DNA from: Sulfobacillus thermotolerans
Lineage (GTDB): Bacteria; Bacillota; Sulfobacillia; Sulfobacillales; Sulfobacillaceae
DNA length: 64,000 nt
Reading direction: 5' to 3'
Assembly: GCA_002951815.1 (NCBI GenBank)
Contig: CP019454.1
Span: 1,426,001 to 1,490,000 of the forward strand
Shown piece after piece: positions 30,973 through 36,225 of this stretch (the first letter of the stretch is position 1; each line of letters opens with the position of its first letter). The notes beneath the pieces are model-generated. The model was given only the letters and a program-made list of their open reading frames with translations. It had not been told where the DNA came from and did no database searches. Position numbers and translations under genes: made by a program.

Positions 30973-31089
30973 CGGTCACCCTCTTTTCATTTCAAAGTTC
31001 TAGTGGATTCAGAATACACCAGGGATTTGGAAAATACGAGGCTGCTTGGGGTGAAATGCCGGAAATCTGTGGCGATTAGGATTCTGTTA

Positions 31090-31728
31090 TCAGTGCCCTT
31101 GCTTAATGGCCACTCGGATTAAAACGTTAGCCGCTTGGTCCATGCGGTCTGCGGCATTACTTAAGTGGCGGTATATTTCGCGCATTTTAATCAAGGCATG
31201 GATGTCATCCACACTGCCGAGGTCAGCAATCGCGCGCCGATAAAGCCCTTCCATCTTGTTTTCGCACGTCTTGGCTCGCACAGCATGGTCTCCTGCATTG
31301 CGCAAGGATGTTGGTAACAATTGTACGGCCTCCGCAAGTGCAGCGGTCCCTTCGCCCATGACGTCGATCATTTGTAAGAGTTCAGATGTTATCGTGGTTT
31401 GATAGAGGGCCAGTTCCTTAATGGAGTTTTCGGCGTAATCGACGATATCGTCTAAAGCTTGCGAGAGATCGTTTATGTCTTCTCGGTCGAATGGGGTCAC
31501 AAAGGTATGGTAGAGTTGTTCGACAATGGTAATACGCGCTCGGTCTCCTGCGTGTTCTAAATCAGAGGCTTGTTCAGCGATTTGTCTCTGCTTGGTTTCG
31601 TCTGAGCCATTTTCCACATAGGCTTTTAACAAGCCAACCATGGTTACGGCGTATTGCGATTGGTCAGCCAACAAACGGTCAAAGTTTTGAACCTGACGGG
31701 ACATTTGAAAGATATCTTTCCAGCTCAT
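31090..31728 (-). CDS. DUF47/PhoU-like phosphate transport regulator
   Basis: An all-helical PhoU-like protein of 212 aa. Conserved parts are AEQASDLEHAGDRARITIVEQL, FVTPFDREDINDLSQALDDIVDYAENSIKEL and the C-terminal IKMREIYRHLSNAADRMDQAANVL. The acidic clusters ED..D and E..D bind metal in relatives. DUF47 proteins partner with PiT transporters, where they are thought to regulate phosphate flux. AGGAGG lies 5 nt upstream of ATG 31728, and the gene starts 21 bp after the PiT stop. The two clearly form an operon. Confidence 0.92.
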   Translation of the reverse strand: MSWKDIFQMSRQVQNFDRLLADQSQYAVTMVGLLKAYVENGSDETKQRQIAEQASDLEHAGDRARITIVEQLYHTFVTPFDREDINDLSQALDDIVDYAENSIKELALYQTTITSELLQMIDVMGEGTAALAEAVQLLPTSLRNAGDHAVRAKTCENKMEGLYRRAIADLGSVDDIHALIKMREIYRHLSNAADRMDQAANVLIRVAIKQGH

Positions 31729-31749
31729 GATAACCTCCTAGTGGGATAG

Positions 31750-32730
31750 TTACTTAATCCAAAGAAACAGAGCCATAATGCCACCGCCCAGTACGATGGC
31801 AGCAGGTAAGGTCAAGGCCCAGACTCCCAGGATCTTGCGGACGACAATCCACCGGACGCTGCCGGGTCGCAAAGCCGTGCCGGTTCCGAAGAGGGAGCCG
31901 TCCGTGGTTTGGGTTGTGCTGACAGGAAAACCGGCGATGGCTGCGAGGCTTACCGTAATCGCGGCAGCGCATTGGGTGCTCACGGCGTTCATGGGATTGA
32001 CGCGAATCACATGATTACCAACCGTGCGCGCAATGCGAATGCCGCCAAATATCATCCCTAGGGCCCAAAATACCAAGGGTAAGAATATTGCGGCAATAGG
32101 TACCTGGTAGCGTGTTTGATGATGGAGGATCATAAAAAATAACGCCATCAGGCCAATAGCTTTTTCTTGATCGTTGGCGCCGTAGGCCAATCCCTGCCAG
32201 AATGCGGTAAGATACTGTCCTTTTTCCAATTGATGAATGCGGTCGGCGCTTAATCGGCTTAAAATCCACCAAATCGCACGTGTTAAAAGCCATGCCGCTA
32301 AAAACCCCAGACCCACGGAACCTAATAGGCCAATAAGCAGTTTGACGATGCCAAGAAGATGGATATCTCGCGCGTGGCCACTCACTAGGGCTGCGCCAAT
32401 CATGCCGCCGCCTAGAGCCACGGTTGTACTGGTGGGCATTTTCATTTTCCAGGTAACCAGCAGGGTAAACAACGCGGCGAGCAGAGCCCCTGTTAGCACC
32501 CCGTACCCGGCCACCTGAAAGTTAATGATTTCGACGGCAATGGTATGGGATACTGCCGTGCCAAAGACCATGGGACCTAATCCAATACTTATTAAAATAA
32601 GTGGGACGACGGTAAAGGGGCGTAAGGTGCGGCTGGCCAAGAACGTGGCCATCAGGTTTCCACCGTCGTTAATGCCCGATATGATTGTAAAGGCTACGAT
32701 GAGGGTGAAGATAGCTCCGTCCAACACCAT
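31750..32730 (-). CDS. pit: PiT-family inorganic phosphate transporter
   Basis: A low-affinity phosphate permease of 326 aa, usually carrying metal-phosphate with H+. The two inverted-repeat signatures are SGINDGGNLMATFLASR near the N-terminus and AYGANDQEKAIGLMAL near residue 180. The GFPVSTTQTTDGSLFGTG segment in the last third and MKMPTSTTVALGGG in the first half are the paired signature helices. About ten TM segments are seen. GGGAGG is 8 nt upstream of ATG 32730. A four-hexamer direct-repeat array lies 15-53 bp upstream of the start, pointing to specific regulation with the DUF47 gene. Confidence 0.93.
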   Translation of the reverse strand: MVLDGAIFTLIVAFTIISGINDGGNLMATFLASRTLRPFTVVPLILISIGLGPMVFGTAVSHTIAVEIINFQVAGYGVLTGALLAALFTLLVTWKMKMPTSTTVALGGGMIGAALVSGHARDIHLLGIVKLLIGLLGSVGLGFLAAWLLTRAIWWILSRLSADRIHQLEKGQYLTAFWQGLAYGANDQEKAIGLMALFFMILHHQTRYQVPIAAIFLPLVFWALGMIFGGIRIARTVGNHVIRVNPMNAVSTQCAAAITVSLAAIAGFPVSTTQTTDGSLFGTGTALRPGSVRWIVVRKILGVWALTLPAAIVLGGGIMALFLWIK

Positions 32731-32744
32731 CGGCGTCGCCTCCC

Positions 32745-32783
32745 TTAACGTAATCGTAATCCTTTCTTAACATAATCTTAATA
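32745..32783. promoter_or_regulatory. Four-hexamer 11-bp direct-repeat array near pit (Pho-box-like)
   Basis: On the plus strand TTAACG, GTAATC, TTAACA and TTAATA begin at 32745, 32756, 32767 and 32778, each separated by 5 bp, so the period is exactly 11. OmpR/PhoB-type regulators bind such repeats; the TTAACA form resembles the Bacillus PhoP box. It sits immediately upstream of the pit ribosome binding site. A minus-strand TTGAAG-N17-GATATA pair (32852-32824) is a possible pit promoter. If so, the array lies in the leader and would act as a repressor site. Confidence 0.55.
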
Positions 32784-32869
32784 ATATCACGATTAAGCCG
32801 GTATGTGCGGTATTGAGACGAACTATATCTCAGATGATGGGAAGAGCTTCAAAATGATATAACGCGATT

Positions 32870-32908
32870 TTCACAAAAGGTTCGCGCGGTGTTCATAAAA
32901 AGTTCATA
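32870..32908 (+). promoter_or_regulatory. Second 11-bp direct-repeat array with -10 box, promoter of the winged-helix genes
   Basis: TTCACA, TTCGCG, TTCATA and TTCATA start at 32870, 32881, 32892 and 32903, again with a period of exactly 11. The last repeat ends 9 bp before an extended -10 (TGGTATGCT, with TATGCT at 32918-32923), and there is no other -35. A repeat array replacing the -35 is the architecture of PhoB/PhoP-activated promoters. The transcript would lead into the winged-helix gene at 32970. Confidence 0.65.
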
Positions 32909-32969
32909 CCCTCTTGGTATGCTGCATGCAGACACATATCACAGGGTGGAATGGGAGAGGGGTGAGACG

Positions 32970-33521
32970 GTGAATCATCCACTGGTAGGGCAAGAGACGT
33001 CACGGCAGGCGAGGATTGCGGAGGCGATGATTCCGCTTCATGCCCTGCTCAATGGAGAGGCATTAGACCGGACTCTTGCCGCATTGTGTCGTGAACATGA
33101 CGTCGTGCATCTCCGTAGTGAATATTTGACGCCTCGCAACTGGACCATTGTGCCAATTCACGCTGGGCTTCCGGCGCTCGATGGATGCGTTAGCGTGGAC
33201 ATGGCTAATCGCCGGTGTTGGCATCGTGGCACGGAGGTGACAATTCCCTATCACCTTTTGCGTCTGATGCACGTTTTTGTCACCTCGCCCCTGCGGGCTT
33301 TAAGCCTTGCGCAGTGCAATCAATGGGCTCTGCAGGAACAATGGCCGCAGTGGACCCAAGAAACATTGCGCGTCGCGATTCACCACGTGCGGAAGGTTTT
33401 TCCGAACCATTTTGTATCGGTAAGGCAAATCGGATATTTTTTTCGGCCCTGCGATGAAGAGAAGTTCTGGGAACCAAGAATGCCATGGTCAGTTGACATT
33501 TCGGAAGTGGGAAATCCATGA
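32970..33521 (+). CDS. PhoB-type winged-helix protein without a receiver domain (paralogue 1)
   Basis: A protein of 183 aa whose C-terminal half (about 90-175) fits the OmpR/PhoB winged helix: CVSVDMANRRCWHRGTEVTI, LLRLMHVFVTSPLRALSL, then the recognition helix TLRVAIHHVRKVF and the wing SVRQIGYFFRP. The N-terminal 80 residues match no receiver signature and lack a phosphoacceptor Asp pattern. GTG 32970 is chosen on GAGAGGGGTGA; an upstream frame start at 32889 lies inside the repeat array. It overlaps paralogue 2 by 4 nt. It is probably a DNA-binding regulator acting on the 11-bp repeats next to it and on pit; this is inferred. Confidence 0.75.
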   Translation: MNHPLVGQETSRQARIAEAMIPLHALLNGEALDRTLAALCREHDVVHLRSEYLTPRNWTIVPIHAGLPALDGCVSVDMANRRCWHRGTEVTIPYHLLRLMHVFVTSPLRALSLAQCNQWALQEQWPQWTQETLRVAIHHVRKVFPNHFVSVRQIGYFFRPCDEEKFWEPRMPWSVDISEVGNP

Positions 33522-34096
33522 GGCAGATAGGGACGATGGGTATCTTTGCCCGTAATGCTGAGTATTGGCGAGGGATGCTTTCGTTTGGAGGTTCTGTCGT
33601 TAGATTGAGCTCTGAAAACCAGGTGTTTGAGGTTCTGGGCGACGCCAAGGTTAACGTGCTTGGCGTAGAACTTGCGTCCTTTGATAACACGGCATGGATC
33701 GGCGCAATGCTCGATCAAGCCCAAAGCGCACGAATTCCTGTGCTATTCCTCCTTCAAGAGTGGCCTTGGGTAGTCCGCGTAATGCCAGACGGCACGGTGT
33801 TGTACCGCATGCAAAGCCAAGGGTCATGTACTCGAGTGGACTTAAATCGCCGTCAATGTTTTCACAAAGGGATGCCAATCGTTCTACCGTGGCGCGTTAC
33901 CCAAACCCTAGCCCTTTTAGTCTCGGACCCCTCTCGAACGTGGAATGTGCGCGCGTTCAATCTCGCCGCCCTTGAAAATGGATGGAATCCTTGGACAGAT
34001 AACGTGTTAAAGGTTCATGTGCATCACATCCGGCAATCATTGGGGCCGGAACATATTCGGCGTGTTTCGGATGGCTACCAGTTTAATAATTGTTAA
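33518..34096 (+). CDS. PhoB-type winged-helix protein with degenerate receiver (paralogue 2)
   Basis: A protein of 192 aa related in layout to its upstream neighbour. The C-terminal winged helix (about 108-190) has TRVDLNRRQCFHKGMPIVLP, VTQTLALLVSDPSRTWNV, the recognition helix VLKVHVHHIRQSL and the wing IRRVSDGYQF. The N-terminal part (VNVLGVELASFDNT, IPVLFLLQEW) resembles a receiver domain core in which the phosphoacceptor Asp is not evident, so it may be a pseudo-receiver. The 4-nt overlap with paralogue 1 suggests equal production and perhaps a heterodimer. A strong terminator follows 20 bp after the stop. Confidence 0.75.
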   Translation: MRQIGTMGIFARNAEYWRGMLSFGGSVVRLSSENQVFEVLGDAKVNVLGVELASFDNTAWIGAMLDQAQSARIPVLFLLQEWPWVVRVMPDGTVLYRMQSQGSCTRVDLNRRQCFHKGMPIVLPWRVTQTLALLVSDPSRTWNVRAFNLAALENGWNPWTDNVLKVHVHHIRQSLGPEHIRRVSDGYQFNNC

Positions 34097-34115
34097 TAGG
34101 AACCCTGTTGAAAAA

Positions 34116-34151
34116 GAGGCCCTGCACTATACGATGCAGGGCCTCTTTTTT
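34116..34151. terminator. Strong intrinsic terminator
   Basis: An 11-bp stem (GAGGCCCTGCA / TGCAGGGCCTC) with an 8-nt loop is followed by TTTTTT on the plus strand. AAAAA precedes it, so it also works on the minus strand for the convergent DUF2892 gene. Confidence 0.88.
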
Positions 34152-34169
34152 GAAAATCCTTCAAGCTTT

Positions 34170-34376
34170 CTATGATTTGCGGACGGGACAGGTCCGGATG
34201 CCAAAGAGTCGATATAGACCACAAAATCCCGTAATACCTGTCACAATGGCTACGACGGCAAGAATCCCGAAAACCCACTCACCGGTAACGCCACCGGTTT
34301 TGGTAATGGCCAAGAGTCCGAATACAATCCCAATGATCACGCGAATAATACGGTCTGAACGCCCCTCATTTACCAT
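34170..34376 (-). CDS. DUF2892 (YgaP-like) small membrane protein
   Basis: A protein of 68 aa with two membrane helices. It carries the DUF2892 pattern: an N-terminal RSDRIIRVIIGIVFGLLAI, then GILAVVAIVTGITGFCGLYRLFGI, with the C-terminal RTCP. Such domains occur alone or attached to rhodanese domains (YgaP); their function is not well defined. AGAGG precedes ATG 34376. It stands alone, ending at a shared bidirectional terminator. Confidence 0.85.
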   Translation of the reverse strand: MVNEGRSDRIIRVIIGIVFGLLAITKTGGVTGEWVFGILAVVAIVTGITGFCGLYRLFGIRTCPVRKS

Positions 34377-34731
34377 GGTATGTCGCCTCTTTTTAGTAGT
34401 TGTTATGATTACTACGCTATCTAATTTCAGATTAAGTAGTTTCTACCAAAATGTCAAGAGCCACTTGAAAAAAACTGTGACCCATTGGTCACCATAGGGC
34501 CGGGTACGGTTACGGAGCATGTTTGTTGGTAAGAAGGGAATAACGGTTTTCAGAAGCCACACAACAACGTCGTGGACCAAAGATTCATCAAGAATCTCCC
34601 ATGGGCATAAGACGCGAAACAACCAGCGTCTTGGCGTCTCCCCCAATACGCTACGTGATGGATTGTGCTAGGCACCGCCGAAGTGGCGTTGTCGGTCCGC
34701 TTCGCAGCATGGAAGCAAGTCGAGTGGAGAC
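34377..34731. other. Intergenic region with an orphan minus-strand terminator
   Basis: About 350 bp without a supportable gene. On the minus strand GTGACC-AATG-GGTCAC followed by AGTTTTTTT (34492-34468) looks like an intrinsic terminator, but no coding gene lies upstream of it on that strand. A small RNA or decayed gene between 34490 and 34720 is possible. Confidence 0.4.
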
Positions 34732-34760
34732 TTGACAATAACTGTTATGCTATGTAATAT
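34732..34760 (+). promoter_or_regulatory. Consensus sigma-A promoter of the APC permease gene
   Basis: TTGACA (34732-34737) and TAATAT (34755-34760) are separated by exactly 17 bp, with TG one base before the -10. This near-perfect vegetative promoter places the start of transcription near 34767, 37 nt before the permease ATG, and excludes the longer upstream reading frame. Confidence 0.85.
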
Positions 34761-34803
34761 CACAGCAGATGCAAATTTATTGCAAAAGATCGGGGGACCA
34801 ACA

Positions 34804-36225
34804 ATGACGGATAAGCAAGGGACATTGCAACCGGATGTTGTCGGCTTTTGGGGATTAGTCAGTCAGAGTTTGGCGGGCATGGCACCGAGTTGTGATGTGG
34901 TGGCTTTTATGACGGCTGGTGCCGCTTTTGCTTTGGTCGCCATGCCTTTGTCCTTTTTATTGGCTTTCCTGTTAATGTTTATTGAAGTGAATACGCTGTA
35001 TCACCTCTCCAAAGATAGAGCATCAGCGGGGGGATACTATAGCTATGTTTCGGCGGGATTGGGCCCTCGCGCAGCCCTCGTGACAGGATTTATGGTTGTG
35101 TTTTACCAAATTCTGAGTGTGGCGGGGATTCCTGTCTATATTGGCGGAGTATTTTTGCCAGGACTCGCGGACCGATTGCACGTGGCATTGCCCGCTTATT
35201 TCTGGATCGTTGCCGTATTGTTCTTCATCGGGGTACCTTGGCTCTTAGCGGTGTTGGGCATTCGACCATCGATTAAGGTATTAGCGACAACCAGTTTGGT
35301 GGAAATCAGCTTTTTAATCGTGGCATCCATCATTATTATGGCCAAAGTTCATCCATCTCATCCTCTGGTTCCCTTTCAGTTCGGGTCGGTGGGCATTAAA
35401 GGTGTGGCGATGGGCATGGTCTTTGCGATCACGAGCTTTATCGGCATCGGAAGTCATAGCTCGTTAGGAGAGGAAGCCAAAGGAGTGCGGACCCAACAAG
35501 GCCGGCTGATTGGGAAAGCGGCGTTAGTCTCACTCACGTTAACCGGAGTGGCCTTAACCCTCTCGGCCTATGCGTTAACAGTGGGGTGGGGCATGTTTCG
35601 CATGAGTAGCTTTTCTACCGCTAATGCCCCCGGAGTGACGGTATTTCTTCACTATTTGGGGCCTGTGGGCGCGGCATCTTTGGTCATTTTAGCCTTAAAC
35701 AGTGCGTTGGCGGATAGCATCGCGCTCTTAACGAGTTCGTCGCGAGTGCTATTTGCGATTGGGCGCGATAACCTGGTGAATACGGGGTTTGCGCAAGTCA
35801 ATGGCCGTCGCGCGCCGGGCCGCAGCGTGACGTTGTTAGCAGGGATTGCGGTGGTCATGGCTGTCGTGGCCGGGTCGCTTTTAGGTCCGTCGGCCGCTTT
35901 TAATGTCATGACGACAGCGGTGTTGTTTGGGCTGGTGACCTCTCACACCTTGATGAATGTCTCCTTGATGCGCTTATTCCGGTCCGAACACAAACAAAGT
36001 CACTTTTTACAACATGTAGTTCTGCCCATATTAGCCATCGGATTGTTTTGGATCGTTCTATACGAATCGGTTTGGCCCATCGCCTATCCTCTCAGTCTTT
36101 CGGCGCTGATTTGGATTGTGGTGTTGATTCCCGTCGTTTTCTATGTCTATGGGATATCCAAGCGCATTCCCAAGGAACGGGGCCATCAGTTGGGAATGAT
36201 ACCGCCGAGTGAGTCAGCGCAATAA
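34804..36225 (+). CDS. APC-superfamily amino acid permease
   Basis: An inner-membrane transporter of 473 aa with about 12 TM segments. The N-terminal helix region VVGFWGLVSQSLAGMAPSCD, then SAGGYYSYVSAGLGPRAALVTGF, fits the APC signature around TM1-TM3. FIGIGSHSSLGEEAKG around TM6 is the substrate-site helix. Substrate unknown: amino acids or polyamines are typical. ATG 34804 (GGGGGA 6 nt upstream) is required by the upstream promoter. It forms a single-gene unit closed by a hairpin shared with the convergent NCS1 gene. Confidence 0.9.
   Translation: MTDKQGTLQPDVVGFWGLVSQSLAGMAPSCDVVAFMTAGAAFALVAMPLSFLLAFLLMFIEVNTLYHLSKDRASAGGYYSYVSAGLGPRAALVTGFMVVFYQILSVAGIPVYIGGVFLPGLADRLHVALPAYFWIVAVLFFIGVPWLLAVLGIRPSIKVLATTSLVEISFLIVASIIIMAKVHPSHPLVPFQFGSVGIKGVAMGMVFAITSFIGIGSHSSLGEEAKGVRTQQGRLIGKAALVSLTLTGVALTLSAYALTVGWGMFRMSSFSTANAPGVTVFLHYLGPVGAASLVILALNSALADSIALLTSSSRVLFAIGRDNLVNTGFAQVNGRRAPGRSVTLLAGIAVVMAVVAGSLLGPSAAFNVMTTAVLFGLVTSHTLMNVSLMRLFRSEHKQSHFLQHVVLPILAIGLFWIVLYESVWPIAYPLSLSALIWIVVLIPVVFYVYGISKRIPKERGHQLGMIPPSESAQ

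Follow-up and report, generated by a model that had tools for sequence, protein, structure and literature searches.

PHO boxes are direct repeats of 11 nt, with the sequence GTTCACC in Streptomyces, and Pst is elsewhere the most conserved Pho target (PMC4415409). In S. meliloti the orfA-pit genes are repressed on Pi starvation and have a PHO box immediately ahead of the translation start (PMC3131613). Activation of pitH2 by S. coelicolor PhoP runs through four 11-nt units (PMC7866108). The available portions of three further papers describe HP1043, GlnR and RitR as having an OmpR-type winged helix and a receiver-like domain without phosphotransfer residues, RitR being a redox sensor (PMC5965902, PMC8345958, PMC12632262). 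The Pho genes published for Sulfobacillus thermotolerans Kr1 are phoB/phoP, phoR, pstSCAB and phoU; the operators, pit and PHS targets and winged-helix genes reported here are not described in the available part of that account (PMC6803676).

We analysed a 64-kb stretch, hereafter the window, that covers C1:1426001-1490000 of the 3,317,203-bp chromosome of the acidophile S. thermotolerans. It contains two arrays that, like the PHO boxes of E. coli, B. subtilis, Streptomyces and S. meliloti, are 11-nt tandem repeats with TTAACA/TTCACC-like cores; at activated promoters such boxes replace the -35 element. Arrays of this kind differ from known PHO boxes in typically having four units, in following a strand rule (reversed at pit, co-directional with genes for PHS-type phosphate:H+ symporters), and in having PHS and PiT carriers as their chief targets, with no boxes in the phoPR-pst operons examined. 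As at S. coelicolor pitH2, four 11-nt units precede a Pit transporter gene; pitH2 is activated by PhoP, whereas orientation and position suggest repression here. The locus also encodes two winged-helix proteins, WH1 and WH2. As far as the available portions of the papers on HP1043, GlnR and RitR go, WH2 resembles those proteins in combining an OmpR-type winged helix with a receiver-like part that lacks the phosphotransfer residues. It differs in that this part is shortened, none is seen in the low-confidence model of the WH1 N-terminus, and the DNA-binding domain of the family carries a pair of invariant Cys and a pair of invariant His; the family lies beside phosphate genes.

The locus and its arrays

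Features are listed by window position.

31090..31728, minus strand: DUF47/PhoU-like partner of pit (Pfam PhoU_div, E 7.9e-20)
31750..32730, minus strand: pit, PiT-family phosphate transporter (Pfam PHO4, E 4.7e-54); probable repressed target of array 1
32745..32783, plus strand: array 1, four PHO-box-like hexamers repeating every 11 bp within the leader of pit, which is on the other strand (TTAACG 32745, GTAATC 32756, TTAACA 32767, TTAATA 32778)
32870..32908, plus strand: array 2, four PHO-box-like hexamers of period 11 at the -35 position of the WH1-WH2 promoter (TTCACA 32870, TTCGCG 32881, TTCATA 32892, TTCATA 32903)
32915..32923, plus strand: extended -10, TGG-TATGCT, its hexamer starting 9 bp past the last array 2 unit
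32970..33521, plus strand: WH1, OmpR/PhoB-type winged helix with no receiver detected; GTG 32970 taken as start
33518..34096, plus strand: WH2, OmpR/PhoB-type winged helix with a truncated receiver-like N-terminal domain; 4-bp overlap with WH1
34113..34151, no strand assigned: terminator-like hairpin, AAAGAGGCCCTGCA...TGCAGGGCCTCTTTTTT, between WH2 and the convergent ygaP-like gene
34170..34376, minus strand: ygaP-like membrane protein, a neighbour conserved in a second genome of the genus (G017)

The open reading frame of WH1 opens mechanically at 32889, within array 2, and its likely start is the GTG. Because a hairpin follows WH2, WH1-WH2 is likely a two-gene operon; a consensus scan did not flag this hairpin. 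The ygaP-like gene is probably outside the phosphate switch.

Arrays were scored with a matrix set beforehand on the B. subtilis PhoP-box consensus. With 27.8 and 27.0 bits, arrays 1 and 2 are the top two 4 x 11 arrays in the window; the third-ranking 11-bp array scores 12.4 bits, and among the other periods between 8 and 15 the best array in the window scores 18.5 bits. The highest score was 21.4 in 40 simulated 64-kb windows and 18.4 in 2000 dinucleotide shuffles of the 239-bp intergenic region, so that no shuffle came up to 27.0. All eight hexamers described in an earlier note on this DNA were found at the coordinates and the period of 11 given there.

Both arrays are 11-bp tandem direct repeats with a conserved core of 6-7 bp, as expected of PHO boxes. 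Array 1, which runs opposite to pit, ends only 14 bp ahead of its start codon. The proposal that array 2 takes the place of a -35 directly before an extended -10 also holds, the fourth hexamer ending 9 bp ahead of it. A sigma-70 scan gave no consensus promoter at array 2, as would be expected if the -35 is replaced; its four matches lie near the shuffle mean. An Rfam search of 31000-35000 gave no match.

The same locus occurs in one relative, G017, with the identical gene order ygaP, WH2, WH1, pit, DUF47. The array before pit in that genome (L050) scores 27.9 bits, and before WH1 there is a three-unit array of period 11 at 15.6 bits. WH1 is apparently interrupted there, its halves lying in different frames with a short stretch absent, which may reflect either decay or an error in a draft assembly. 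The tree pairs WH1 and WH2 each with an ortholog in G017 (supports 99/98 and 98/96); long branches meet in it, and it does not separate the routes by which WH1, WH2 and a third own-genome paralogue, WH3, arose. The expected conservation of the pair and the arrays beside pit is thus borne out in G017 for gene order and arrays, less so for WH1, which looks broken.

Distribution and targets of the arrays

The arrays of homologous loci gave a gap-free alignment, from which a profile based on DNA sequence only was built. Alignment positions that had not been used in finding the arrays are also conserved; among them are an AATC that follows the first hexamer and, 9 bp past the final hexamer, a TATAAT-like box. 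Sites matching the profile are present in 34 of 34 family genomes (up to 150 candidates were scored per genome).

We examined 40 sites, all outside the training loci. Eighteen precede pit, in every case near its start codon and running against it, and 17 precede genes for PHS-type symporters, every one on the same strand as the gene; the PHS assignment is based on TIGR00887 matches of 133-305 bits, which fall under the strict cut-off of that model. The others are one each at ugpC, surE and a VIT gene, and two without an assigned gene. As expected of PHO boxes, the neighbours are phosphate-acquisition genes, with 37 of the 40 sites at pit, PHS, ugpC or surE. A -10 at +9 after the last unit was the best placement at 11 of 20 sites and the commonest spacing, agreeing with the 9 bp at array 2, so that the -35 is replaced at a fixed distance from the -10.

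A pattern search of the S. thermotolerans genome allowing up to two mismatches gave 40 matches, and the reversed control gave 11. Those that are credible lie ahead of three PHS-like MFS genes, pit, WH1-WH2, WH3 and a phosphatase-family gene. At G000:C1:13352-13389 an array-like site, which may have a -10 at the common spacing, precedes a 355-aa tyrosine phosphatase family gene (PF13350).

Sites also occur in near-complete genomes in which no member of the WH family was found (G003, G007, G009, G011 and G012), and in a sister family arrays likewise precede PHS and pit/DUF47 genes. The arrays therefore do not depend on the WH proteins. Judged from sequence and gene context, the arrays are PHO-box operators of a regulon that is spread over the order, reversed at pit, where they probably repress, and forward at probably activated genes. 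The reading of the arrays as 11-bp-repeat operators of the PhoB/PhoP type is upheld by their retention in relatives and by their tie to phosphate genes.

Arrays were also seen before genes of the VIT family of iron/manganese carriers (L062:9541-9596, L063:13561-13616, L064:7607-7662 and L204), in three of the four loci divergent from ugp genes. They point to a possible connection, in these acidophiles, of phosphate handling with that of iron.

The winged-helix family

A genome scan with WH2 alone found no relatives and a 20-row alignment gave no usable pattern; a 6-row alignment worked. Its clear relatives are confined to Sulfobacillus and Bacillota MAGs, the remainder being weak matches to the wHTH domain only. 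NCBIfam gave no full family name for WH1 or WH2, and theirs is an undescribed family of the Sulfobacillaceae. Full-length members are present in 17 of the 34 family genomes and diverged members in five more.

Both proteins fall below the Pfam cut-off for Trans_reg_C (WH2 at 16.4 bits); the predicted fold is clear for that domain. In the WH2 model (pLDDT 84) an OmpR-type winged helix stands behind a truncated (beta-alpha)3-beta domain, and residues 102-192 match the effector domains of PhoB, PhoP and GlnR with Z 10-12 and an rmsd of about 2-3 A. The whole chain aligns to response regulators, although the receiver-like domain was compared within the whole chain and only its (beta-alpha)3-beta part is present; alpha4-beta5-alpha5 is absent from the model. 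WH2 has no Pfam receiver match and lacks the acidic pair, Asp and Lys of a receiver: Glu stands at the position of the phosphoacceptor Asp, A-R replaces the acidic pair, and the beta5 part that would bear the Lys is missing. Across the family the phosphoacceptor position is D, E or N. In the WH1 model the wHTH is confident and no receiver was modelled, but the N-terminal 69 residues are mostly at pLDDT under 50.

The earlier note had assigned a degenerate receiver to one paralogue and an unrelated N-terminus to the other. Modelling agrees on WH2, where the domain is truncated, without acidic pair or beta5 lysine, and no intact receiver Asp was found; on WH1 it goes only as far as a low-confidence model with no receiver.

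In the DNA-binding domain C104, C192, H116 and H179 are invariant in 20 members, and this set suggests a metal or thiol function. RitR-like redox regulators are marked by a reactive sensor cysteine in the linker; of the invariant Cys here, C104 is at the start and C192 at the end of the wHTH. The recognition helices vary, and the positions equivalent to those with which PhoB reads bases differ across the family. Phosphate genes are frequent among the neighbours of the WH genes, with surE at 12 loci and also ugp genes, PHS carriers and uppP, and the member in G010 adjoins permease, ATPase and PstS-type genes. In one clade (L225-L229) diverged members lie directly downstream of ugpB, before a nitroreductase-like gene. 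A continuous 488-aa ORF on the minus strand of L054 (G017:C129, 8511-9977) encodes two WH-family domains, each with paired cysteines, beside ugp-type genes. This double-domain ORF makes a functional WH pair possible and hints that such pairs can act jointly.

Which protein binds the arrays

The S. thermotolerans genome encodes a canonical phoP-phoR-pst-phoU system, with PhoP, PhoR, PstS and PhoU in one gene cluster. Among solved structures PhoP is nearest to RegX3, and its recognition helix ARTVDVHIRHLREK is found identical or near-identical in 8 genomes. The occurrence of arrays without WH proteins, together with this canonical PhoP-PhoR-Pst-PhoU system, makes PhoP the likely binder. We regard it as probable, well short of certain, that the arrays are operators of canonical PhoR-PhoP, activating WH1-WH2 and repressing pit-DUF47, and that WH1 and WH2 are regulon members and probable second-tier modulators. 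Against PhoP as binder counts the phoPR-pst operon itself, whose want of arrays is unusual for a Pho regulon: no 11-bp array was found in the canonical operons examined (L129, which is G000:C1:536001-551000, L130-L133 and L135-L137), and 69 loci around pstS, phoU or phoP contained almost none. The idea of a canonical pho operon carrying matching arrays was dropped, since there was none in the operons read. Weaker arrays of 20-21.5 bits were seen at L100, L101 and L103, loci with an additional PstS-type binding protein.

The earlier note had instead made WH1 and WH2, perhaps as a heterodimer, the binders of both arrays and thereby a phosphorylation-independent phosphate switch. Their OmpR/PhoB DNA-binding fold, the position of the genes next to the arrays with a 4-bp overlap, the occurrence of the family near phosphate genes, the two-domain ORF beside ugp genes in G017 and the recovery of orthologous pairs would all suit such a role. 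It is nevertheless distinctly unlikely, since several near-complete genomes and the sister family have the arrays without these proteins, the positions corresponding to the base-reading ones of PhoB vary across the family while the array sequence is constant, and in G017 WH1 is apparently frame-shifted and shortened, yet both arrays are kept. With the same arrays before pit and PHS in the absence of WH proteins, variable WH helices and a canonical PhoP in the genome, the claim of a WH1/WH2 switch acting on the arrays is not supported. A milder version, a special case of PhoP binding and not its opposite, has PhoP as the main binder and induced WH1/WH2 competing for or co-occupying the boxes as feedback. 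We think it unlikely: the proteins share the fold and the tandem-repeat logic, WH members sit in Pho-type loci and array 2 would control their own genes, but their recognition helices vary and nothing links them to the reading of TTAACA.

Another OmpR-family regulator could also read the arrays. The WalR box, TGTWAH-N5-TGTWAH, is nearly the reverse complement of the arrays, and TGTTAA-N5-TGTTAA on the pit strand fits this consensus; the genome holds six full OmpR-type matches. The targets are overwhelmingly phosphate transporters, however, which fits PhoP better than a cell-wall regulator, and we consider binding by another such regulator, for example a WalR/YycF-like protein, very unlikely.

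Proposed regulation and significance

The arrays, their conservation, targets and orientation, the presence of PhoPR, and the WH family with its neighbourhoods were computed; from these we infer that PhoP binds, in which direction the genes are regulated and what WH1/WH2 do. With PhoP as the binder, PhoP~P would occupy the four 11-bp repeats under phosphate starvation. At array 2, which points forward and lies 9 bp ahead of the extended -10, it would then turn on the WH1-WH2 operon as PhoB does its targets in E. coli. Forward arrays with a -10 at +9 match class II activation by PhoB-type regulators, a mode established for E. coli PhoB. Array 1, reversed and either covering the presumed pit promoter or lying downstream of it, would turn the pit-DUF47 operon off. 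The reversed array in the pit leader resembles that of S. meliloti orfA-pit, and by this analogy array 1 probably represses pit; repression of pit is not automatic, since S. coelicolor PhoP activates pitH2. Array orientation follows one code across the regulon of the order, reversed at pit and forward at PHS-type symporters, ugp, surE and WH genes.

The WH1/WH2 genes are probably targets of the switch and not its agents. As regulon members they would be OmpR-type winged helices that lost the phosphorylation machinery and that provide a second tier of modulation; phosphorylation-independent modulation of phosphate scavenging is their most likely role as far as sequence can indicate. The fuller proposal, that WH1, WH2 and their relatives are PhoP-induced second-tier Pho regulators, free of phosphorylation, arranged in tandem pairs and gated by metal or thiol through the Cys/His set, is rather unlikely as a whole.

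The order of Sulfobacillus, for which the available portion of the literature had listed only phoPR-pst genes (with ppk and ppx), gains a concrete Pho regulon with a simple strand rule. That rule parts probable repression (pit) from probable activation (PHS, ugp and surE). The WH family accompanies phosphate genes and no longer has the phosphorylation machinery, leaving the question of how it is controlled; Cys/His gating, if true, would tie phosphate scavenging to iron or redox status in these acidophiles.
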